DNA of 64,000 nucleotides from Nitrospira sp. (lineage in GTDB: Bacteria; Nitrospirota; Nitrospiria; Nitrospirales; Nitrospiraceae), in NCBI GenBank assembly GCA_018242725.1, contig JAFEBI010000011.1:372001-436000 (forward strand), written 5' to 3'. Under the pieces are notes generated by a model. That model ran no database searches and was not told the DNA's origin. It saw only the letters and a list, made by a program, of their open reading frames with translations. Below, piece after piece: positions 1,964 to 13,055 of the stretch (position 1 is its first letter; each line of letters begins with the position of its first letter). A program made the position numbers and the translations under genes.

Positions 1964-3616
1964 ATGAAGGAAGCGGATCATCTGACTCCACCGATGAGAG
2001 AGCACACCGGATCCAATGTCATGGGGGCCGGAAGTCTCCTGGCCGGCCTTGTGGGATTGCTGGCGGTGCTTTATTACCCCATTCTCTATCCTATGCTGGT
2101 TCAGTGGACCGATGATCCAGACTATTCTCATGGATTCTTGATCCCATTCATGGCGGCCTACTTTGTCTGGGAACGACGTCAGCATATTCTTGCAGAGCCT
2201 CCTCAGCCTGATCGCTTCGGCGTGCCTCTGCTTGGGATCGGACTGTGTATCTTGCTGATCGGCCTGGTTGGAGCCGAGTTGTACATGCAGCGTGTGTCGC
2301 TGCTAGTTGTCCTTGCAGGAGGAGTGCTGCTGATCCTCGGGCGTGAAGCGCTCAAAGTTCTCGCATTTCCGATCGGATTTTTGCTGTTCATGATTCCGCT
2401 TCCTGCCATCGTGATCAATGCAATCGCCTTCCCGCTGCAGTTGTTTGCGGCTAAGACGGCCACATACTGTCTCGATACGTTCGGTATTCCTGTGTTGCGG
2501 GAGGGAAATGTCATCGTGTTGGCGAGCACGCGGCTTGAAGTGGCCGAGGCCTGCAGCGGGATTCGTTCGCTGCAGGCGTTAGTCGCCTTAGGGACGGTGT
2601 TTGCATACTTTTCCCAAACTCTGTTGTGGAAACGATGGGTCTTGGTTGCGCTCTCTATTCCCATCGCGATTGTGGCGAATGCGGTGCGAGTGAGTGGTAC
2701 CGGGATCTTGGCCCACTACTGGGGAACTGAAGCTGCTCAAGGGTTTTACCATACGTTTGAGGGCTGGCTGATTTTTCTGGTGGCATTTGCGTTTCTCCTG
2801 CTCGCAGGTTTCATACTCTCAACGGTAGGCCGAGATCAGGCGAGGTCAGGTCAACACGATGCACCCACGGTTCTAGGCGCACAGCCGCGTTCGATTCAAA
2901 AGAAACCGATTGGGATCGCGATGGGCTTAGTAGGCTGTGCCCTCCTTGCGGTGTATTCTCTCTCCCAAGGAGAACTCATTCCGGCGAAGCAGTCCCTTCA
3001 GAAATTTCCACTCACCATTGCCGACCGTTGGGCTGGAACAGAATTGGGCTTGGAGGACGACGTCCTGAAGGTGCTCCGACTCTCTGAATACATCATGCGG
3101 GTGTATGTTCCGATTCCTCTCATGGCACCTGAAGCACGACCGGTTTCATCAACGGAGCGCATGCCAGGACCTGTCGTCCGGGCAATCGTTGATCGCTCAT
3201 TTTCGAACGGGCCGGTGTGGCTCTATGTGGGTTATTATGAGTCACAACGAACCGGTGCGACGTATCACTCACCGAAGAACTGTCTTCCTGGGGCCGGATG
3301 GCAATTTGTCGAGTCTACGGAGATGGTGGTTCCGGTGAATGATCGTTCCATCACGGTGAACGGGGTGACGATACAGAAAGGGCTTGATAAGCAGGTGATT
3401 GTCTATTGGTATCATGATCGTGGGCGGGTAATTGCCAGTGAGTATTGGGCAAAAGCGTATTTGATTTGGGATGCCGCAACCAAACATCGATCGGATGGCG
3501 CCCTGGTTCGGATTTCTGTGCCGGTGACGACGACGGTCGAAGCGGCACAAGCGAAGGCGCGCATGTTTCTCCAAGACTCATGGCCGCTGATCGTCGATTT
3601 CATGCCGGCTGCTTGA
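1964..3616 (+). CDS. xrtA: Exosortase A fused to EpsI domain (XrtA-EpsI)
   Basis: A 550-residue integral membrane transpeptidase that recognises PEP-CTERM signals and cuts or transfers the protein at the inner membrane. Residues about 20-285 are the multi-pass exosortase core. The catalytic Cys is C197 in EACSGIRSLQ, the Arg is R242 in NAVRVSGTG and the His is H263 in FYHTFEGW. Residues about 310-550 form an EpsI domain with YVGYYESQRTGATYHSPKNC and a TM anchor near 315-335. EpsI is often a separate gene, so this is a fused form. A good ribosome binding site (AGAAGGA) precedes ATG 1964. Its likely substrates are the two PEP-CTERM proteins downstream. Confidence 0.95.
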   Translation: MKEADHLTPPMREHTGSNVMGAGSLLAGLVGLLAVLYYPILYPMLVQWTDDPDYSHGFLIPFMAAYFVWERRQHILAEPPQPDRFGVPLLGIGLCILLIGLVGAELYMQRVSLLVVLAGGVLLILGREALKVLAFPIGFLLFMIPLPAIVINAIAFPLQLFAAKTATYCLDTFGIPVLREGNVIVLASTRLEVAEACSGIRSLQALVALGTVFAYFSQTLLWKRWVLVALSIPIAIVANAVRVSGTGILAHYWGTEAAQGFYHTFEGWLIFLVAFAFLLLAGFILSTVGRDQARSGQHDAPTVLGAQPRSIQKKPIGIAMGLVGCALLAVYSLSQGELIPAKQSLQKFPLTIADRWAGTELGLEDDVLKVLRLSEYIMRVYVPIPLMAPEARPVSSTERMPGPVVRAIVDRSFSNGPVWLYVGYYESQRTGATYHSPKNCLPGAGWQFVESTEMVVPVNDRSITVNGVTIQKGLDKQVIVYWYHDRGRVIASEYWAKAYLIWDAATKHRSDGALVRISVPVTTTVEAAQAKARMFLQDSWPLIVDFMPAA

Positions 3617-3755
3617 GGCACTCCCACCGTGTTCGACGATCGCGGATGCACACGAGACGGTCCGGTTTCCTCTGTTTGTGCCGTATCAATGCGGGTGCTC
3701 ATTTCAGGGGTGTTCCGCTATTGTTTTCCTGGTTGCAAAACATCTGGCTCTCACA

Positions 3756-5855
3756 ATGACTGACATTATTGCCATGCTCGCGGCTTCAACTTGCTTGGTG
3801 TTAGCGCTTACCGTTGTTGTGAAGGGGTGGGTAAGTCGCTTTCATCGAAGTGTTGCCGGCGTGTTGTTGGGTGCAGCGGGAGTCTGTGTCGGCGAATGGC
3901 TGGTGAGCGTTCCTCAGGCAGTGTCGGGCCTCGGATTCATACTATGTTTTCTCAGCGAACTGCTGTTGGTCGTGATGTTGTTTCAAGCGGTGACCGCGTT
4001 CAACCGAGAGCCGGAGGAAGCCGTCAATCGCACTCGCTGGATACAATACGTATCAACGACTGTGTCGGTCGGCTTGGGAATGTGGATTGTCCTGGCTCTG
4101 TTGGATGCCGATGCATCCAAAGACAGGATCGGGGACGGCGTGGGGCTGAGCGGAGATATCACCTACCTGTTCCTCGTGATCATGTATGTCATGAGCATTG
4201 CCTATATCGAAGGACTTCTCCGCACGTTGCGAGACCCCGTCCTCTATCAACTGAAGTTTGTGCTGATTGGGTTGGTCGCATTGGCGGGATTCAGGATTTT
4301 TGCATTGAGCCAAACTGTCTTTCCGCAGAGAGAACGGCTTGATGTCGTCACACATGGGCTTGCGATTCTTATGGTGGTAGCCCTCATGGCCTACGGATTC
4401 ATGCGAGCGCGGTTTCAGTCGTTCACGGAACGGATTTATATCTCCCCGAAAGTGCTGTCTGGGTCGCTGACATTTCTCGTGGTAGGTCTGTATGTGTTTG
4501 GAGTTGGTGCCGTCAGTCAGATGGCCCGTTCCGCAGGGGTATCGTTCGGAATCGCGTTGAGCGTGCTCTTTGTGTTGGTGGCCTTGGTAGCGTTGGCCAT
4601 ACTGATGCTCTCTCGCAGTACCAGGACGGCGTTGCGGAGCACGGTGGCGCGCAATTTTTATCGGTCGAAGTATGACTACCGGGCACAGTGGCTGGAAGTC
4701 ACGGAGGTATTTCGAGAGAGGGATTCCGTCGATGCCATTTGGGATGGGCTGCTGGGGCTGCTGAGTCGCACGTTTTCTGCCGGTCGAATTTCGGTTTGGT
4801 ACAAGATCGAGGCTGAAGGGCGGTTTCATCAGGTGCGGTCTACGAACACCGAGCCTCCCCCGGAACCGCTGGAAGCCTCTCATCGCTTGATTCTGGCGCT
4901 GGCGGAGACCGATCGGCCGTTGGCTGTGGACCTGGTCGGATTATTGCCACAGGATTCTTTCGTACGGGCGACTCGCACAGTCTTGTGTGTGCCGCTTCGT
5001 ATGGAATCTGAATTGATTGGGTTGATCGCCTTAAGCGGCGATGTAACCGGGGTGCCGTATGGACAGGACGATCATGATCTATTGAGAGCCATGGCACATC
5101 ATGTCGGGGTGTTGTTGGCCCATGCGCGATTGGCGGAGGATCGCCGTGGTTCAGCCGAGCTGGAAGCCTTGCATCGGTTTTCTGCGTTCTGTCTGCATGA
5201 CTTGAAGAATTTAGCGGCTCGTCTGTCTTTGGTGGCACAGAATGCCGATCTCCATGGTCAAGATCCTGCGTTTCAGGAGTCCGCCATGAAGACCGTGAGC
5301 GACACAGCAAAGAAAATGACGGCATTGATGTCGAAGCTCTCGCTCAAAGCCTTTCAGTCGCCCGATACCGTCAAACCTGAGGTGGTGGATCTGCGCTCGA
5401 TGATTGAAGACACCGTCGGTTCCCTGAGAGGGAGGGGACCGCGCTGGCGAATGACGATGGAATCTGTTCCACCGCTCATGGTTGTGCGAGAAGGGCTCCA
5501 CCAAGTACTGCTCAATATCCTGTTGAATGCCAAACAAGCCGTCGGTGAAGAGGGAGAAGTTCGGATCGCGCTGAGACAGCTCAATAGGGCAGTCGTACTG
5601 ACGGTCGAAGACACCGGATGCGGTATTCCACTAGAGAGGCTGCGGACACTATTCCGTCCGGTGCAATCGAGTCGGCCGGGTGGCCTTGGAATCGGGTTGT
5701 ATCACTGTCGGCGAATCGTTGAGGGCTATGGCGGCATGATCCAGATTCGGAGTGTCGTGGAACAGGGGACCACCGTGCGGATCGAACTTCCGTTCCCACC
5801 CCTGTCCGTGGTACAGCCTTCCGATGCCCGAGAGCAATCAGTTGTCTCGTCGTAA
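3756..5855 (+). CDS. prsK: PEP-CTERM system sensor histidine kinase PrsK
   Basis: A membrane histidine kinase of about 699 residues. The N-terminal 300 residues hold many hydrophobic segments and serve as the sensor. A GAF-like region follows (about 320-470), then the phosphoacceptor box FCLHDLKNLAARL with His 481, then an HATPase domain with NILLNAKQAVGEEG, VEDTGCGIP and GGLGIGLYHCRRIVEGYGG. The HDLKN box is characteristic of PrsK. It lies directly before prsR and is assumed to phosphorylate it. The start is uncertain: the frame opens at GTG 3678 but the hydrophobic sensor begins at ATG 3756, and neither has a clear ribosome binding site. The sensed signal is unknown. Confidence 0.92.
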   Translation: MTDIIAMLAASTCLVLALTVVVKGWVSRFHRSVAGVLLGAAGVCVGEWLVSVPQAVSGLGFILCFLSELLLVVMLFQAVTAFNREPEEAVNRTRWIQYVSTTVSVGLGMWIVLALLDADASKDRIGDGVGLSGDITYLFLVIMYVMSIAYIEGLLRTLRDPVLYQLKFVLIGLVALAGFRIFALSQTVFPQRERLDVVTHGLAILMVVALMAYGFMRARFQSFTERIYISPKVLSGSLTFLVVGLYVFGVGAVSQMARSAGVSFGIALSVLFVLVALVALAILMLSRSTRTALRSTVARNFYRSKYDYRAQWLEVTEVFRERDSVDAIWDGLLGLLSRTFSAGRISVWYKIEAEGRFHQVRSTNTEPPPEPLEASHRLILALAETDRPLAVDLVGLLPQDSFVRATRTVLCVPLRMESELIGLIALSGDVTGVPYGQDDHDLLRAMAHHVGVLLAHARLAEDRRGSAELEALHRFSAFCLHDLKNLAARLSLVAQNADLHGQDPAFQESAMKTVSDTAKKMTALMSKLSLKAFQSPDTVKPEVVDLRSMIEDTVGSLRGRGPRWRMTMESVPPLMVVREGLHQVLLNILLNAKQAVGEEGEVRIALRQLNRAVVLTVEDTGCGIPLERLRTLFRPVQSSRPGGLGIGLYHCRRIVEGYGGMIQIRSVVEQGTTVRIELPFPPLSVVQPSDAREQSVVSS

Positions 5856-5879: not shown

Positions 5880-7268
5880 ATGAGCACCCTCTCCACCGTT
5901 CTGCTTGTCGATGACGATCCTGACATTCGTGACCAGATGAAATGGGCGCTGATGTCCGACTACCAGGTGCTTCAGGCAGAGGACCGCGCATCCGCTGTGG
6001 CGCAGAACCGATCGGCGATGCCGCCGGTGGTCCTCTTGGATCTTGGTCTGCCTCCGGATGTGGACGGCGCCTCGGAGGGATTGGCCATCTTGCGGGAAGT
6101 CCTGAGCCTGAATCCATTGGCCAAAATCATTGTCGTGACCGGTAACAGTGATCGTGCGAATGCTGTGACGGCCATTGAAAGCGGCGCGTTTGATTTCATT
6201 GAGAAGCCGATTCAACTCGATGTTTTACGGGTCGTGCTGCAGCGGGCGTTGTATCGCTATGGAGTAGAGCAAGACCGCCGCGTGCAGTATACCTCAGTCG
6301 AGGGGGAAGAATTTGAAGGGATTGTGGGCGTCAGTGAGCCGATGCAGCAGGTCTATCGGTCGATTCGTCAGGTTGGTCCAACCGCCATGCCTGTGTTGAT
6401 CATGGGGGAAAGTGGCACCGGCAAAGAGCTGGTAGCACAGGCGATTCACCGTCGGAGTACGCGCCGCGAAGAGCCTTTTGTGGCGATCAACTGCGGCGCC
6501 ATCCCCGAAAACCTCCTGGAGAGCGAGCTGTTTGGTTATGAAAAAGGGGCCTTTACCGGAGCGGTTCAACAGAAAAAAGGGCGAATCGAGTACGCCAATG
6601 GTGGCACGCTCTTTTTGGACGAAATCGGTGATATTCCCCTTGTCTTACAGGTCAAGCTCTTGCGGTTTTTGCAGGATCATAAAGTCCAGCGACTTGGAGG
6701 AAGGGATACAATTTCCGTCGACGTCCGGGTGGTCGCGGCCACGAATGTCGATCTTCGCAAGGCCATCAGTGAAGGGCGGTTTCGTGAAGACCTCTTCTAT
6801 CGTCTCTGCGTGATTGAGATTGCCCTTCCGCTGTTGAATGAACGCGGGGCCGATATTGTCCTCCTTGCGCGCCGATTCATGATGCAATTTGCAACGGAAC
6901 AACACAAACAGCTGAAGGGGTTTTCCCCGGATGCGGTAACGGCATTACAGGCGTATGCGTGGCCCGGGAACGTCAGAGAACTGGAAAATCGACTGAACCG
7001 AGCTGTTCTCATGGCCGAAGACGCCTATATTACGCCGGAAAATCTTGGGTTGCGAAACCTGGCCGTAGGGGGCGAGGAGGGCCTGAGTTTGAAAACATCC
7101 CGCCAGCGTCGCGAGAAAGATCTGATTCAGCTGGCGCTGGAGAAGAACGAGGGGAATGTGTCGAAGGCCGCGACTGAGTTGGGGATCAGTCGTCCCACCC
7201 TCTATCAATTGTTGGATCGCTATGGATTGAAGAAAGCGAAGGCCGAAGGCCAAGCCGAAAACGCCTGA
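5880..7268 (+). CDS. prsR: PEP-CTERM system sigma-54 response regulator PrsR
   Basis: A 462-residue NtrC-type activator. A receiver domain (about 1-130) has the acidic pocket VDDDPD and phosphoacceptor D54. The AAA+ domain (about 150-390) has Walker A GESGTGKE (176-183), the sigma-54 contact loop in FGYEKGAFTGA and Walker B GTLFLDEIGD. A Fis-type helix-turn-helix at the C-terminus ends near KAATELGISRPTLYQLLDRY. It should use ATP to remodel sigma-54 RNA polymerase when phosphorylated by PrsK. It begins 24 bp after prsK. Both PEP-CTERM genes nearby have sigma-54-type promoters and a shared palindrome, so they are the likely targets. Confidence 0.95.
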   Translation: MSTLSTVLLVDDDPDIRDQMKWALMSDYQVLQAEDRASAVAQNRSAMPPVVLLDLGLPPDVDGASEGLAILREVLSLNPLAKIIVVTGNSDRANAVTAIESGAFDFIEKPIQLDVLRVVLQRALYRYGVEQDRRVQYTSVEGEEFEGIVGVSEPMQQVYRSIRQVGPTAMPVLIMGESGTGKELVAQAIHRRSTRREEPFVAINCGAIPENLLESELFGYEKGAFTGAVQQKKGRIEYANGGTLFLDEIGDIPLVLQVKLLRFLQDHKVQRLGGRDTISVDVRVVAATNVDLRKAISEGRFREDLFYRLCVIEIALPLLNERGADIVLLARRFMMQFATEQHKQLKGFSPDAVTALQAYAWPGNVRELENRLNRAVLMAEDAYITPENLGLRNLAVGGEEGLSLKTSRQRREKDLIQLALEKNEGNVSKAATELGISRPTLYQLLDRYGLKKAKAEGQAENA

Positions 7269-7336: not shown

Positions 7337-7353
7337 TGTAAATAATTTTTACA
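7337..7353. promoter_or_regulatory. Candidate PrsR upstream activating site 1
   Basis: Perfect dyad TGTAAA-TAATT-TTTACA, centred about 172 bp before the GG of the sigma-54 promoter at 7515. The same dyad with a 5-base spacer lies upstream of the second PEP-CTERM gene at 12043. Position and symmetry fit an enhancer for a Fis-type sigma-54 activator. Binding by PrsR is inferred. Confidence 0.6.
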
Positions 7354-7425
7354 TCCCAATGAATGAGTGTAACGTATGGAATTTATTTGAAAGTGATTAA
7401 AAATTAACAACGAGATCATTTTTTG

Positions 7426-7442
7426 TGTAAAGAAAATTAACA
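7426..7442. promoter_or_regulatory. Candidate PrsR upstream activating site 2 (imperfect)
   Basis: TGTAAA-GAAAA-TTAACA differs from the perfect dyad at one base of the right arm. It lies 89 bp downstream of site 1, centre to centre, and about 83 bp before the promoter GG. Two sites in tandem are common for NtrC-type activators. Confidence 0.45.
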
Positions 7443-7514
7443 GGATACTTCGTTTGATATTACTGCGAGAGTAAATCAGTCTTGCATTTGCGATAGCTTA
7501 CAAATGTCAAAAAC

Positions 7515-7531
7515 TTGGTATTGAACTTGCT
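7515..7531 (+). promoter_or_regulatory. Sigma-54 (-24/-12) promoter of first PEP-CTERM gene
   Basis: TTGGTATTGAACTTGCT has the invariant GG (7517-7518) and GC (7529-7530) with ten bases between, and matches the TTGC of the -12 box. The -24 box departs from TTGGCAC after TTGG. Transcription would start near 7542, giving a leader of about 70 bases before ATG 7615. Confidence 0.65.
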
Positions 7532-7614
7532 GGATAAGCGATACGTCCGTGTTTGAAACACTGAAACGTATTTAGTACTCAATTTTTGATGTAAGCAGAA
7601 AAAAGGACAGGCAA

Positions 7615-8205
7615 ATGCAGACCAAAATGAAGGCAGTGCTAGTCACTGTGGGGTTGTGGCTGGGCATGGCCGTGACCTCAGCCCATGCGGTGCCGCTGTT
7701 GACGCTCGCGCCTGGAGATGCAAACTTTACCCAGACGGCGAACGGCAATTGCAATGCCGATTGTGTTGAGGGCCAGCTTAGTGCGAATGGCTTGGGAACG
7801 TACGACTTAACAGAAGTATACAAGCAGAACGCTGGTGGGAGCGAAGAAGGGACTCTTGCTACCTCCTATACCACGACGTTCAATCGTGATAACAGTGCTT
7901 TTACCATTAGCTATGATGGAGCTCCAAATCCAGCAATTTCCTGTCCATTTTGTGTTTTATTAGTGAAGGATGGAACTCCAAATCCCAGGTACTTTTTTGT
8001 TACCGCTATGAATAGCTGGAATGGTACGGACACTATTTCGGGTGGCATTTTTTATCCCGGGCAGGGAGAAATCTCGCACGTGTCAATTTTTCAGGGAGAC
8101 CCAGGAACTTCAACTGATCCTGTTCCGGAGCCGGCGTCGATGTTGTTGCTCGGTTCTGGGTTAGTCGCACTGGGTTTGTGGAGACGGAATTCTGGCAAGG
8201 CCTAA
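7615..8205 (+). CDS. PEP-CTERM sorting domain protein 1
   Basis: A 196-residue secreted protein with an N-terminal signal peptide (KAVLVTVGLWLGMAVTSAHA). The C-terminal sorting signal is VPEPASMLLLGSGLVALGLW followed by the basic tail RRNSGKA. The mature part is Asn/Thr/Gly-rich and has two cysteine pairs (CNADC and CPFC). It should be exported, anchored by its C-terminal helix and processed by the exosortase upstream. A ribosome binding site (AAAGGA) precedes ATG 7615. A sigma-54 promoter lies upstream and a strong hairpin terminator downstream, so it is probably transcribed alone. Its function beyond cell-surface or matrix association is unknown. Confidence 0.9.
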   Translation: MQTKMKAVLVTVGLWLGMAVTSAHAVPLLTLAPGDANFTQTANGNCNADCVEGQLSANGLGTYDLTEVYKQNAGGSEEGTLATSYTTTFNRDNSAFTISYDGAPNPAISCPFCVLLVKDGTPNPRYFFVTAMNSWNGTDTISGGIFYPGQGEISHVSIFQGDPGTSTDPVPEPASMLLLGSGLVALGLWRRNSGKA

Positions 8206-8240
8206 TCAGCAGCGTTCACCAGTAAGAGTGCCAATGACGT

Positions 8241-8272
8241 GGGGCCGGTCCTCAAACATGAGGGCTGGCCCC
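8241..8272 (+). terminator. Rho-independent terminator after PEP-CTERM gene 1
   Basis: A 12-bp stem of GGGGCCGGTCCT and AGGGCTGGCCCC (two G-U pairs) closes an 8-base loop and is followed by a T-rich run. It also makes starts before about 8275 unlikely for the next gene. Confidence 0.8.
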
Positions 8273-8314
8273 TTCTGTTTTCCTCGACTATGTTCTTGTA
8301 CGTCCCGACGATCA

Positions 8315-9370
8315 ATGGGTTGTTTCTCTCACACAGGTGTTCTCATCGTCTCATATGCGGCCGGACCGAGCCTCTCAGAGCATGATGCTTCTAAGAAACT
8401 AGCCATTGGGGTTCTGCTTCTCGCGCTCTGTGTCCTGAGCGCCTGTTCCAGTCTCCACGATGTTGGAAAAACCACACTCCCGAATGATCCGGAAGCATTG
8501 CAACGCCGTCTGCATGATGTTGGCTTGCCCTTGTTGGCCGCAGCCGTCGATTGGTGTCCGTTCGAGCAGGAGGCGACTTATGGGTTCTTCCTTCATGACC
8601 CTCCGAGAAAGAGCGATACGACAAGCCACGCAGCGACGATTCCGCTTGTCTCCTATGTGCATCCGCACATGCCTGCAGCCTTTGCCGGGCTTGCCCTGGG
8701 GGATCGCATCATTGAAGTCAATACGACGAATGTCGAAGCACACGATGCGCCCACGATTATGCGGTTGGTCTCTCGGCTGACGGCGGCCCGCATTCAACCG
8801 TTGCAGCTTGAAGTCCAGCGTGGGGCAGCACGTCGAACCGTGACAATGCGGGCGCTGCCGGCCTGCAAATTCTTGTTGAGAGTGATTGAGAGCAACTTCA
8901 TCAACGGGGTGTCTAATGGCCGGGTCATTGCGGTGACGACGGGAGCGATGCAGACTTTTTTGAGGGATGATGAATTGGCTTGGATTCTGGCGCATGAGGT
9001 TTCGCACAACATTCTCAATCATGCCCAGAATGCTCAGCTGAGAGTGATGCTGAATGCTTTTCTCCACGCGGCAGTCGGACCCGCGACACAAAATATGCCG
9101 CAACCAGAGGCTCGCATGCTCGAAGCGCAGGCCGATTATGTCGGGGCATACCTCATGGCCCGGGCCGGCTATGATCTGGATGCGGTTCGTCGGGTATGGG
9201 AACGGCTACGGCAACTTGAACGGGCACAATCCAAGTCCGGGTATGAGATAAGTCGCACTCACCCGACCACCGCGGAACGCCTGGCTGCATTTCAGGAAAC
9301 CTTCAAGGAAATCCAAAATAAACGTCAACGCGGTGAACCGTTGCAGCTTCAGTTTACCCCGCGCGACTGA
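8315..9370 (+). CDS. M48-family metalloprotease lipoprotein with PDZ domain
   Basis: A lipobox (LCVLSACSS) follows a hydrophobic stretch, so the product is probably a lipoprotein facing the periplasm. A PDZ-like region comes next (HMPAAFAGLALGDRIIEVN). The M48 peptidase domain has the zinc motif HEVSH (227-231) and the downstream EAQADYVGAYLMARAGYD helix that supplies the third ligand. This PDZ-before-M48 order occurs in periplasmic quality-control proteases. It sits between a PEP-CTERM gene and prsT, so it may act on envelope or matrix proteins; that is inference. The start is uncertain: the frame is open from GTG 8228, inside the terminator, and ATG 8315 lacks a clear ribosome binding site. 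Confidence 0.8.
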   Translation: MGCFSHTGVLIVSYAAGPSLSEHDASKKLAIGVLLLALCVLSACSSLHDVGKTTLPNDPEALQRRLHDVGLPLLAAAVDWCPFEQEATYGFFLHDPPRKSDTTSHAATIPLVSYVHPHMPAAFAGLALGDRIIEVNTTNVEAHDAPTIMRLVSRLTAARIQPLQLEVQRGAARRTVTMRALPACKFLLRVIESNFINGVSNGRVIAVTTGAMQTFLRDDELAWILAHEVSHNILNHAQNAQLRVMLNAFLHAAVGPATQNMPQPEARMLEAQADYVGAYLMARAGYDLDAVRRVWERLRQLERAQSKSGYEISRTHPTTAERLAAFQETFKEIQNKRQRGEPLQLQFTPRD

Positions 9371-9380
9371 TCACGTGCCG

Positions 9381-11672
9381 TTAGAGTCCTGCGAGTGTTT
9401 TCTTCGCGTCTTCAGCGCCGGTAAAGTGCTGGTTGAGCTTTAATGCGGTCTGCAGCGCCTGTTTGGCAGCAGCAGCCTCACCGTTCCTGGCTTGTGCCAT
9501 TCCAAGGTGGTAGTGCACGAGCGGCTCATTGGGTAATTTATCTGCAGCCTCCTTCAGCAGGCTCACCGCGAGGAGGGAGGCGTTTTTCTTATAGTAAATC
9601 CATCCAAGCGTATCGGCGATACTAGGGTCTTCCGGTCTCTGCTCTCGAGCGGTCTGGGCATGAGAGAGAGCCACGTCGAGATTACCCCCCTGCTCAGCGA
9701 TCAACCAGGCCAGGTTATTGGCGGCCGGTGCGAAGCGGGGATTGAGTTTGAGAATCTGGTCGTATCGTTCTTTCGCCTTGTCGTACTCTTTGCGGCCTTC
9801 ATGGATGATACCCAACATCATCAGCGCGGCGGGGGCGTTGGGGGTTTTGGCGAGGATGGTTTGATATTCTATGACCGATTGATCAACCTTCCCGGTTTGG
9901 TAGTAGAGTTGTGCCAAGTTCAAATATGGAGCCAGCGCTGAACCGTCGATTTCAATCGCGGTCTTGAATGATTGCTCTGCCTGTGCCGGATCCTTGGCAT
10001 TCAGCCAGAGTTGTCCGACCAGATTATGGAGCAAGGGACTGTTTGGTGCGGTCTCCAACTGCTTGATCACTCGCTCCCGTGCCTCTTGCGTCTTGCCCTG
10101 GGCGCTCTTGATGGAGACGATTTGCAGGATGGGTTCGAATGCAGTCGGGCGCTTCGCCAGCGCCTCTTCAAAATATGCCAGGGCCTTCGTCGTATTCTTT
10201 TCCGCACGGGCGACTAAGCCGAGGTTGTAGGGGCCGATCGGTTCTTTGGGAGCAGCTTGCGCGATGGCTTCAAAGACCTTCCGGCTTTTCGCCAGATCGC
10301 CTTTCCGGAGGTAGGCGGTACCAGCGACGACGGCGGCCTGCACATTACGAGGGTTGATCTGAATGGCGGCTTGTGCCTGTTCTAGCGCCAAGTCGGCTGA
10401 TCCTTCCGCCAGATAAATCTGTGCCAACGCCGTTCGGGCATCGCCCAGCTGAGGGTTGAACTTTACGGCGTCGGCAATCGCGGCTTTGGCTTGAGGGAGT
10501 TGCTGCTTTTGCAGGTAGGCTATTCCGAGGAAATGGTGAGCTCCGGCAAATTGGGGATTGTCTTTTAGAATAGCTTGGAGCAGCGTGAGAGCCTCATCGG
10601 ATTTTGCCTGGGCAAGCTTCAGCCTTGCCTCGAAGAACCGACCCATGAGGTCATGTTTGTCTTTATCCCGGAGCGCATTCACGAGTGGCTCGGCGTCTGC
10701 GATCTTGCCTGTATCCAAATAATGACCGATCAGCTTATCTCGCGCGTTGGACGATGACGGGACGATTTCTGTGGCACGTCGGTAATAAGCAAGGGCTTTT
10801 TCTGGTTGCCCCAGGGCGGTGAAATAGTCTCCGAGATGGATGAGAGGCGTGTCTGCTTGGGGCTTACGCGCCACCAGTTTCTGTAGGGTGGCTTCGGCAT
10901 CGGCGGGTTTGGCGTGACGTTGATAGTGACTTGCCAAGTGAAGGTAGACTGCCTCATTCTCTGGATCGGCTTCCATAGCCTGCTGGTAGTGCGTTTCAGC
11001 CCGCCCTGATTGCCCCACGACATCGTAATAGTCGGCCAATGCCAGGAGCGCCGGAAGCGCGTGAGGATCGACGGACAAGGCTTGGCGGAGTGCGGCTTCC
11101 GCGGCCGGCTTCTCGTTCAGGAGAAAATGGACTCGCGCCAGGTCAATGTAGATTTGGATATTCTTAGGGTCTTGCTCGAGTGCCTTCTTGAGCTCAGCGA
11201 TACCGTCCTTGTACTGTTTTTCATTGATCAAGCTCCGTCCATGGAGGATCAGCCCGTCAAGATGTTGAGGGGCCGATGCCAGTACGATCTCGGCACGTTC
11301 GCGCGCTTTGCCGGGATCTTGCGCCAGAAGGTAGAGTTCGCCGAGCTTGAGTTGGGCATCTTGATTCGTCTTGTCCAGGGCCACTGTTCTCGTGAGCTCA
11401 GAGAAGGCGGCCTGGAGGCTGGGAATGGTGCCGTGTTTCAAGTAGGCCAGAGCCAATCGGTAATGGATGCCAGGGCTATTAGGCTCTACCTGGATCACGT
11501 TCTGATATTCGATGATCGCTTCTGGATATTGGCCATTCTTCATATACGTTTCTGCTCGTTCGCGATGTTTGGCTGTCTTCTCCCCCGGTGTCTTCGAATC
11601 ACACCCGAGATGGCCAAGCATGATGAGAGCGAACAGAAGATTCCGGATGATCATTGTGGAACGAAAGGACAT
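9381..11672 (-). CDS. prsT: PEP-CTERM system TPR-repeat lipoprotein PrsT
   Basis: A 763-residue lipoprotein with the lipobox LGHLGC followed by about twenty tetratricopeptide repeats to the C-terminus, such as AIIEYQNVIQVEPNSPGIHY and GIAELKKALEQDPKNIQIY. PrsT accompanies PrsK and PrsR in exosortase A loci. It probably acts as a periplasmic scaffold for polysaccharide export. The start at 11672 is supported by AGAAAGG six bases upstream. The gene points away from PEP-CTERM gene 2, with which it shares a long intergenic region, and converges on the M48 gene with only 10 bp between stops. I found no sigma-54 promoter on its own strand. Confidence 0.92.
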   Translation of the reverse strand: MSFRSTMIIRNLLFALIMLGHLGCDSKTPGEKTAKHRERAETYMKNGQYPEAIIEYQNVIQVEPNSPGIHYRLALAYLKHGTIPSLQAAFSELTRTVALDKTNQDAQLKLGELYLLAQDPGKARERAEIVLASAPQHLDGLILHGRSLINEKQYKDGIAELKKALEQDPKNIQIYIDLARVHFLLNEKPAAEAALRQALSVDPHALPALLALADYYDVVGQSGRAETHYQQAMEADPENEAVYLHLASHYQRHAKPADAEATLQKLVARKPQADTPLIHLGDYFTALGQPEKALAYYRRATEIVPSSSNARDKLIGHYLDTGKIADAEPLVNALRDKDKHDLMGRFFEARLKLAQAKSDEALTLLQAILKDNPQFAGAHHFLGIAYLQKQQLPQAKAAIADAVKFNPQLGDARTALAQIYLAEGSADLALEQAQAAIQINPRNVQAAVVAGTAYLRKGDLAKSRKVFEAIAQAAPKEPIGPYNLGLVARAEKNTTKALAYFEEALAKRPTAFEPILQIVSIKSAQGKTQEARERVIKQLETAPNSPLLHNLVGQLWLNAKDPAQAEQSFKTAIEIDGSALAPYLNLAQLYYQTGKVDQSVIEYQTILAKTPNAPAALMMLGIIHEGRKEYDKAKERYDQILKLNPRFAPAANNLAWLIAEQGGNLDVALSHAQTAREQRPEDPSIADTLGWIYYKKNASLLAVSLLKEAADKLPNEPLVHYHLGMAQARNGEAAAAKQALQTALKLNQHFTGAEDAKKTLAGL

Positions 11673-12042
11673 GGATAACCTTTCTGGTCAGGAGGTTCGA
11701 GCCATCCAATCAGCCGGTATCTTACGACAGCCCTCGCGCAAATTCATAGCTTTCAAGTGTAGAGAAAGATCGGTCAAGGGGGGCGATGTGGAGTCGTTTG
11801 AGTCGACGTACGTTGGTGGGACCGATGATGCAGCTTTGCGACAGGACCCATGGAAAGGGTGACGATGACGCGTTCCCAGGATTAAAGCGATCTGTCATGC
11901 CGCCTAGTGCGTAGCTAGGTCTCAAACGGGGTAGTCTGATGAATGGTTCGGATGAACGGATCGAGTAGCGTTCCGAACCGGAGAGTTACCAGACGGCTCT
12001 ATATCTAGCCTGAAGACAGCGTTAAAACAGGATACATGCGAA

Positions 12043-12059
12043 TGTAAAAATATTTTACA
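12043..12059. promoter_or_regulatory. Candidate PrsR upstream activating site, PEP-CTERM gene 2
   Basis: Perfect dyad TGTAAA-AATAT-TTTACA, with the arms extendable to 7 bp. It is the same architecture and outer bases as the site at 7337 and is centred about 210 bp before the sigma-54 GG at 12261. A half site TGTAAA follows at 12178. It lies between prsT and the PEP-CTERM gene and could serve both. Confidence 0.6.
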
Positions 12060-12258
12060 GTGTAAGACTGAAGCGATTCCGTATTGTCAATAAACTATAA
12101 CTAATTGAAATGAAATGATTATTCATAACATTCTGAATGAAGAATACCGTCATATTCGAAGCTTCTCCTGGTAGGGGTGTAAAATTATCTGACGAAATGA
12201 GCGATGGATCTGTTAGCGATATTTATAACTATGTAGTGTTTTCAACATCTTAAATGAC

Positions 12259-12275
12259 ATGGCAAGTATATTGCT
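12259..12275 (+). promoter_or_regulatory. Sigma-54 (-24/-12) promoter of PEP-CTERM gene 2
   Basis: ATGGCAAGTATATTGCT has GG (12261-12262), ten bases, then GC (12273-12274), and closely matches TTGGCAC-N5-TTGCW. Transcription would begin near 12286, about 90 bases before ATG 12378. The rest of the 0.7-kb intergenic region is AT-rich and shows no other clear gene. Confidence 0.7.
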
Positions 12276-12377
12276 CACCTGATGTATCTGTATTGATGGC
12301 TTCATGGTTTTATCGAGGAGCGATCGTGAAGTTTATAAAGTTGTCTCCAAGTAACTGAATTAAGGAGGTGAGTGTAC

Positions 12378-13055
12378 ATGAAGCGAATGATGTGTGTAAC
12401 AATGTTTGCCCTCTTGGTGGGAAGCATGGCAGTTCCTCAACCGGCTTCAGCCTTGAGGCTCTCGTTGAACGCCGGAGGGGGGGCCGTTGAAGTTTCCCTC
12501 ACCGATAACGGAGTAGGAGATGTCAATGGGGCCTCTGATGTGATCACATTCCTTGGTGCGGTGAATAACTGGTCTGTTAATGTAACCACAGGCGTCAACC
12601 TGGGAACTGCAACTCAGCCGCACATGGATTTGAACAGCATCAACATCTCGAACGGTGGTGGTGGGACCATGCAGATCATGCTAACTGAGACGGGCTTTAC
12701 AACTCCACCCGCGTTTAGTTTTCTTGGGTTGATCGGTGGGACTGCGGCGAACCGGGTTCAATATCAGACCTATTGGGATGCCGCGAATAATGCATTTGCA
12801 ACAACCACGCCGTTGACGAACTCTGGTCTTCTTGGGCCTGGAGCATTTTCTGATACGAGAGGTGGTCTTGGTGGTGGAGTCGGCCCATTTTCTGTGACTC
12901 AGGTGGTGACGATTACTCACCTGGCTGGAAATAATGTGTCGACCTCCTTCGATGCAGCAGTTTCCACGGTGCCGGAGCCTGCGTCCATGCTTCTACTTGG
13001 TTCAGGGCTCTTGGGTCTTGGGCTGTGGGGTCGGAAGATGCGGAAGAGCGCGTAG
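12378..13055 (+). CDS. PEP-CTERM sorting domain protein 2
   Basis: A 225-residue secreted protein with a signal peptide ending near PQPASA. The Gly/Asn/Thr-rich mature region carries no cysteine outside the signal peptide. The C-terminal signal is VPEPASMLLLGSGLLGLGLW followed by GRKMRKSA. An excellent ribosome binding site (AAGGAGGTG at 12362-12370) fixes ATG 12378, even though the frame extends to a GTG six bases earlier. The sorting helix is nearly the same as in the first PEP-CTERM protein while the mature parts differ, as expected for substrates of one exosortase. It is likely PrsR/sigma-54 controlled and ends before a perfect terminator. Confidence 0.9.
   Translation: MKRMMCVTMFALLVGSMAVPQPASALRLSLNAGGGAVEVSLTDNGVGDVNGASDVITFLGAVNNWSVNVTTGVNLGTATQPHMDLNSINISNGGGGTMQIMLTETGFTTPPAFSFLGLIGGTAANRVQYQTYWDAANNAFATTTPLTNSGLLGPGAFSDTRGGLGGGVGPFSVTQVVTITHLAGNNVSTSFDAAVSTVPEPASMLLLGSGLLGLGLWGRKMRKSA

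Follow-up and report, generated by a model that had tools for sequence, protein, structure and literature searches.

Paired N5 dyads upstream of PEP-CTERM genes in Nitrospira as candidate PrsR enhancer sites at helically quantised distances from the sigma-54 box

Two perfect dyads of the form TGTAAA-N5-TTTACA stand before two PEP-CTERM genes in the genome of a Nitrospira sp., which raises the question of which regulator they serve and how they relate to the sigma-54 promoters downstream of them. The window analysed here, a stretch of 64,000 nucleotides, encodes PrsR, PrsK, PrsT and an exosortase, all above the respective curated cut-offs. An exosortase gene with a C-terminal EpsI domain (1964..3616, +; TIGR02602, 230 bits; TIGR02914) is followed by prsK, encoding the PEP-CTERM system histidine kinase (3678..5855, +; TIGR02916, 346 bits, cut-off 300), and by prsR (5880..7268, +), whose product comprises a receiver, a sigma-54 activation domain and a Fis-type HTH (PF00072, PF00158, PF02954) and scores 616.3 bits against the TIGR02915 cut-off of 502.6. 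prsR directly precedes the first pair of sites (A), beyond which lies PEP-CTERM gene 1 (7615..8205, +; 196 aa; TIGR02595, PF07589). The second pair (B) is situated between the divergent prsT, the gene for the TPR protein of the system (9381..11672, −; TIGR02917, 392 bits, cut-off 312.2), and PEP-CTERM gene 2 (12372..13055, +; 227 aa from the listed GTG; PF07589), the segment from prsT to the end of the pair spanning 9381-12194. For gene 2 there is an alternative ATG at 12378, preceded by the Shine-Dalgarno-like stretch AAGGAGGTGAG. A PDZ and M48 peptidase gene occupies 8228-9370, between PEP-CTERM gene 1 and prsT.

All four putative PrsR sites are given on the forward strand. The distal sites A1 (7337..7353, TGTAAATAATTTTTACA) and B1 (12043..12059, TGTAAAAATATTTTACA) match the dyad with 0 mismatches, as an earlier sequence-only reading of this DNA had reported, and the copy with one mismatch that it had placed at 7426-7442 was likewise recovered as the proximal site A2 (7426..7442, TGTAAAGAAAATTAACA), 89 bp past A1 and 73 nt ahead of the predicted sigma-54 -24/-12 promoter of PEP-CTERM gene 1 (7516..7531, +, TGGTATTGAACTTGCT). 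That reading had also listed a half site at 12178; the location holds, but what is found there is a full asymmetric 17-nt site, B2 (12178..12194, TGTAAAATTATCTGACG), lying 135 bp past B1 and 65 nt ahead of the predicted -24/-12 promoter of PEP-CTERM gene 2 (12260..12275, +, TGGCAAGTATATTGCT). B2 has the form TGTAAA-N5-CTGACG; read in reverse it is CGTCAG-N5-TTTACA, a TGTCRG-type partner with a Haft-type half. The closely similar type TGTAAA-N5-CTGACA is found repeatedly in relatives, and the layout of an asymmetric proximal site with a distal dyad recurs in two of them (G097 and G267). The perfect dyads do lie upstream of the sigma-54 boxes, though at 162 nt (A1) and 200 nt (B1) edge to edge rather than at the 170-210 bp first proposed; the sites at canonical distance are the imperfect A2 and B2, with A1 and B1 as the distal members of each pair. 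From site B toward prsT, no sigma-54 box was detected at the threshold used. With up to two mismatches the dyad occurs five times in the window, against a mean of 0.72 in shuffles, none of which reached five.

The genome to which the window belongs is syntenic over ~7 kb, at 70-75% identity, with a contig of Nitrospira sp. Ga0074138, and is thus a Nitrospira in the broad sense. As a whole (4,016,728 bases in 34 contigs) it was scanned for the dyad, with the reversed pattern as control. Only two perfect copies exist, both in the window, with 0 for the control. Permitting one mismatch gives six distinct sites, three in the window, two on contig C14 and one on C31, all of them upstream of four PEP-CTERM genes that are also the genome's four best TIGR02595 matches; all four genes have a promoter with paired sites and a GG-N10-GC box. 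At two mismatches there are 45 sites genome-wide versus 77 for the control, and thus only near-perfect sites are informative.

Extension of the scan to relatives, which the sequence-only reading had suggested, shows that the sites occur in company with PEP-CTERM genes and with PrsR. Across 54 genomes of the same genus there are 32 perfect dyads and one copy of the reversed control. Genomes with a protein above the TIGR02915 curated cut-off were taken as PrsR-positive, namely 15 of these 54 and three other family members, 18 in all. Within these 18 genomes, 28 of the 30 perfect sites are upstream of PEP-CTERM genes, and sites with at most one mismatch precede 39 of 103 PEP-CTERM genes, compared with none of the 19 in the six PrsR-negative genomes (Fisher p=0.0004, kinship ignored), while the reversed control has no match in the 103 upstream regions. 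By genome, perfect sites are present in 8 of 15 PrsR-positive members of the genus and in 4 of 39 others (p=0.0017, treating genomes as independent despite shared descent). In many Nitrospira genomes a site is also found directly 3' of prsR. These distributions support the earlier proposal of a candidate PrsR operator that would define a PEP-CTERM regulon.

The boundary of this putative regulon is not entirely sharp. In the PrsR-positive genomes, no site with one mismatch or fewer precedes 64 of the 103 PEP-CTERM genes; some have weaker pairs, and some of the site-less genes may belong to different exosortase systems. Perfect dyads that adjoin no PEP-CTERM gene occur in the PrsR-positive genomes G097 (C13:136519; L076:3720) and G323 (C4:519; L084), and as a single copy in the PrsR-negative G102 (C53:394; L086); these are either chance occurrences or mark non-PEP-CTERM targets. 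As regards the other site-bearing PrsR-negative genomes, the site pair of G210 is near a contig end, and in G191 sites and sigma-54 boxes accompany two PEP-CTERM genes although no PrsR exceeds the cut-off, this genome being either truly exceptional or incompletely assembled. In G273, prsK and prsT are intact and the adjoining prsR is broken. This prsR (L185:3361-4638 on C11) is interrupted by a frame break, and its match contains a gap; either the gene has decayed or the assembly is in error. G273 has the same divergent layout of prsT and site as the window, in which the PEP-CTERM gene would fall off the contig.

The sequence-only reading held that no consensus had been published for this group, which is incorrect, since both the element and the PrsR prediction were put forward, for Proteobacteria only, in Haft et al. 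(2006; PMC1569441). According to the text of that paper, a 17-nt motif ('motif 1') ending in TTTACA, sometimes repeated, precedes a sigma-54 motif at a gap of 62.8 +/- 10.6 nt (range 32-92); of 167 proteobacterial PEP-CTERM genes 99 have it upstream, and it is absent in the other phyla examined; the same text names PrsK, PrsR and PrsT and predicts PrsR as the motif binder. Subsequently, DAP-chip with the Desulfovibrio vulgaris PrsR DVUA0057, which is likewise of the PrsR type with PEP-CTERM promoters but from a different phylum, enriched all five predicted PEP-CTERM promoters, in a study that validated no binding motif (Rajeev et al., 2011; PMC3333781). DVUA0057 is the only PrsR for which such enrichment in vitro is known. 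We re-derived the proteobacterial form de novo from PEP-CTERM upstream regions of named genomes with PrsR-like proteins, drawn from Proteobacteria and other phyla, and obtained TGTCRG-N5-TTTACA. The perfect TGTAAA dyad was tried as a universal PrsR site and rejected, being missing in nearly all of these genomes.

Because the re-derived proteobacterial form is TGTCRG-N5-TTTACA and the TGTAAA dyad is nearly absent there, the Nitrospira site is, on a sequence comparison made through this re-derivation and the text of Haft et al., a symmetric and nearly always paired variant of the Haft element. The two share the 17-nt length, the TTTACA end, the -24/-12 box, mostly monocistronic PEP-CTERM genes and co-occurrence with PrsR, PrsK and PrsT, as well as the location upstream of PEP-CTERM genes and outside coding regions, with which the 28 of 30 perfect Nitrospira sites agree. 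The gaps are also comparable, the published 62.8 +/- 10.6 nt standing beside 50-76 nt for most promoters here, and the 73 and 65 nt of the window fit the published range of 32-92. They differ in the 5' half, which is TGTCRG in the re-derived proteobacterial form and TGTAAA in the perfect Nitrospira sites, where TGTCRG-type halves are found only in partners. They differ also in that the Haft box was described from Proteobacteria only and as repeated only 'sometimes', whereas Nitrospira, a different phylum, has paired sites at 39 of 41 promoters, with full symmetry in the distal sites and helical quantisation of the gap.

This architecture was defined on the 41 Nitrospira promoters with sites. 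Where half-sites are perfect, they are separated by N5 in 30 of 31 instances and never by N6. The second site, present at 39 of the 41, is most often 85-92 bp away, and many partners have the asymmetric form TGTCAG-N5-TTTACA, in one orientation or the other. A sigma-54 box follows 43-110 nt past the proximal site in 30 of the promoters. De-duplication by promoter similarity (39 promoter clusters) left 30 gaps in the range 30-100 nt, which group at 50-53, 60-65 and 70-76 nt, with 28 of the 30 within 50-76; they are phased at ~10.7 bp with R=0.71, a value that 0 of 4000 jittered sets attained. The distances between paired sites were examined for the same property and fall at 85-93, 101-104 and 112-114, but with R of only 0.2 at 10.5 bp, and we therefore claim no phasing between sites. 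NtrC-type enhancers are dyads of 17 bp whose hexamer half-sites stand N5 apart; they share with the present sites the dyad geometry, a Fis-type HTH in the presumed regulator, the sigma-54 target, the pairing and an intervening IHF-like site, but here the half-site sequence and the regulon are different and the loop of ~52-73 nt varies in strict one-turn steps.

The spacing was replicated in the family of Massilia, where a composite pattern that permitted any gap of 47-77 was applied to 145 genomes. It matched 71 promoters, with 0 for the control, and the gaps were solely 49-53 (14), 60-64 (49) and 72-75 nt (8), a picture unchanged when the 71 promoters were clustered into 63 groups. By a loose tail pattern, 17 of 20 sampled promoters have a PEP-CTERM-like gene downstream; about three of these tails are doubtful (L380, L385, L392), leaving ~14 that are convincing. 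The corresponding composite-pattern search of 175 genomes of the Nitrospira family returned almost no further promoters. In both phyla, the gap from proximal site to box is near 52, 62 or 73 nt, one helical turn apart.

Within the gap, an IHF-like sequence is found at fixed positions in both groups. In the Massilia family the IHF consensus lies 18-20 nt upstream of the box, perfect in 22 of 71 promoters versus 0.3 expected and with one mismatch in 48 of 71 versus 5.4 expected. In Nitrospira an IHF-like sequence with one mismatch allowed is present in 13 of 27 gaps, against 1.7 expected, in the orientation opposite to that of the Massilia family. All 13 begin 33-35 or 44-47 nt past the PrsR site and end 4-7 or 13-16 nt ahead of the box; these position classes were set post hoc, the enrichment itself being independent of them. 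One of the 13 at phased positions is in the window, between B2 and the promoter (12240..12252, +), where TTTCAACATCTTA matches WATCAANNNNTTR with one mismatch. No HU/IHF protein signature was detected in the window and the other loci examined, a search covering these loci and not the whole genome. On balance we favour the view that PEP-CTERM promoters follow a cross-phylum helical grammar of PrsR site, IHF-like site and sigma-54 box, in which the Nitrospira steps of 33-35 or 44-47 and 4-7 or 13-16 nt would be two independent one-turn choices and would thus give total gaps of ~52, 62 and 73, and in which the Massilia family would have the same three gap classes with the IHF-like site flipped and 18-20 nt from the box. 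The quantised gap with a fixed-position IHF-like site is apparently new: in the open-access literature searched, no previous account of the spacing rule came to light, which does not prove that none exists.

We consider it very probable, from sequence evidence, that the dyads act as enhancers, or upstream activating sites, through which PrsR would switch on the PEP-CTERM genes via sigma-54. From the sites, their pairing, the N5 spacing, the PEP-CTERM specificity, the co-occurrence with PrsR and the helical spacing, all of which are observed here, we infer PrsR binding, phosphorylation control, hexamer assembly, IHF occupancy and transcription. Each promoter would offer two PrsR dimer sites, a distal perfect one and a weaker proximal one. 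PrsR phosphorylated by PrsK would be recruited to the pair and oligomerise into an AAA+ hexamer. The DNA from the proximal site to the -24/-12 box would form a short, phased loop, probably with IHF or a similar protein bending it where the IHF-like sequence lies, and this loop would bring PrsR to the sigma-54 RNA polymerase and so turn the PEP-CTERM genes on.

The most serious alternative is that a different NtrC/Fis-type sigma-54 activator, a PrsR paralogue, binds the dyads and that their adjacency to prsR is coincidental. Paralogues do exist, 18 TIGR02915-like matches reaching E<=1e-100 in this genome, and G191 retains its two site-bearing promoters without a detected PrsR. Since such paralogues are present in all 57 genomes searched, however, they would not account for sites whose occurrence goes with PrsR above the cut-off, whether counted by genome or by gene; the broken prsR beside prsK and prsT in a site-bearing PrsR-negative genome, the sites directly past prsR in many Nitrospira genomes and the match between a PrsR and PEP-CTERM promoters in the DAP-chip work (PMC3333781) point the same way, and we regard a paralogue as improbable. 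It is more doubtful still that bound PrsR has a chiefly repressive or architectural role, with activation coming from elsewhere: the distal sites, 160-200 nt from the promoter, could be so read, but the proximal ones stand in constant helical register with a sigma-54 box, which itself needs an AAA+ activator, and pepA of Aquincola is RpoN-dependent with a predicted enhancer upstream (PMC9850573).

Resemblance to another box has also to be weighed. The TyrR/PhhR box of an aromatic amino acid regulator is TGTAAA-N6-TTTACA, with half-sites identical to those described here but N6 instead of N5 and different genes; TyrR, too, is related to NtrC and has a Fis-type HTH. The half-site spacing being strictly N5 in PEP-CTERM upstream regions, a TyrR box is excluded by that spacing; the targets are moreover PEP-CTERM genes with sigma-54 boxes and PrsR scores 268 bits against a TyrR cut-off of 576, making this identification scarcely credible. 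An origin as AT-rich chance palindromes, or as a hairpin or other element without regulatory function, could draw on the composition of the promoter regions (68-71% AT versus 46% for the window), but is refuted by the shuffled and reversed controls in window and genus and is at odds with the N5 strictness, the pairing and the helical phasing; we give it practically no weight.

While the core of this system was published in 2006, the present analysis adds a new phylum, a symmetric paired form of the operator and a quantised spacing rule. The range of the PEP-CTERM enhancer thereby grows beyond Proteobacteria to include a nitrifier lineage of Nitrospira type, and the published mean gap becomes, through its quantisation in two phyla, a proposed mechanistic rule. 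Paired N5 dyads with a quantised gap provide a sharp, searchable definition, so that PrsR regulons become predictable genome by genome. As PEP-CTERM proteins influence the flocculation of activated sludge bacteria (PMC9850573), the putative switch in Nitrospira is of practical interest.

Further arrangements of these genes were observed. The genome of the window has a second locus with exosortase, FemAB-like and PEP-CTERM genes (G000:C32:126312-128996; L021), with no prsR between the genes and no PrsR sites in the locus examined. Six Nitrospira genomes (G381, G257, G206, G050, G199 and G333; L065-L070) have PrsR above its cut-off and no PrsK above its own, with PrsR adjoining a single PEP-CTERM gene that has a site pair. 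In PrsR the phospho-acceptor Asp54 is replaced by Gly in G206 and by Asn in G333. These sequences suggest that the PrsK-less genomes carry an orphan, kinase-independent PrsR. In G050 the order (L092:416-1564) is exosortase, FemAB-like gene (TIGR03019, below cut-off), prsR, paired sites and PEP-CTERM gene.
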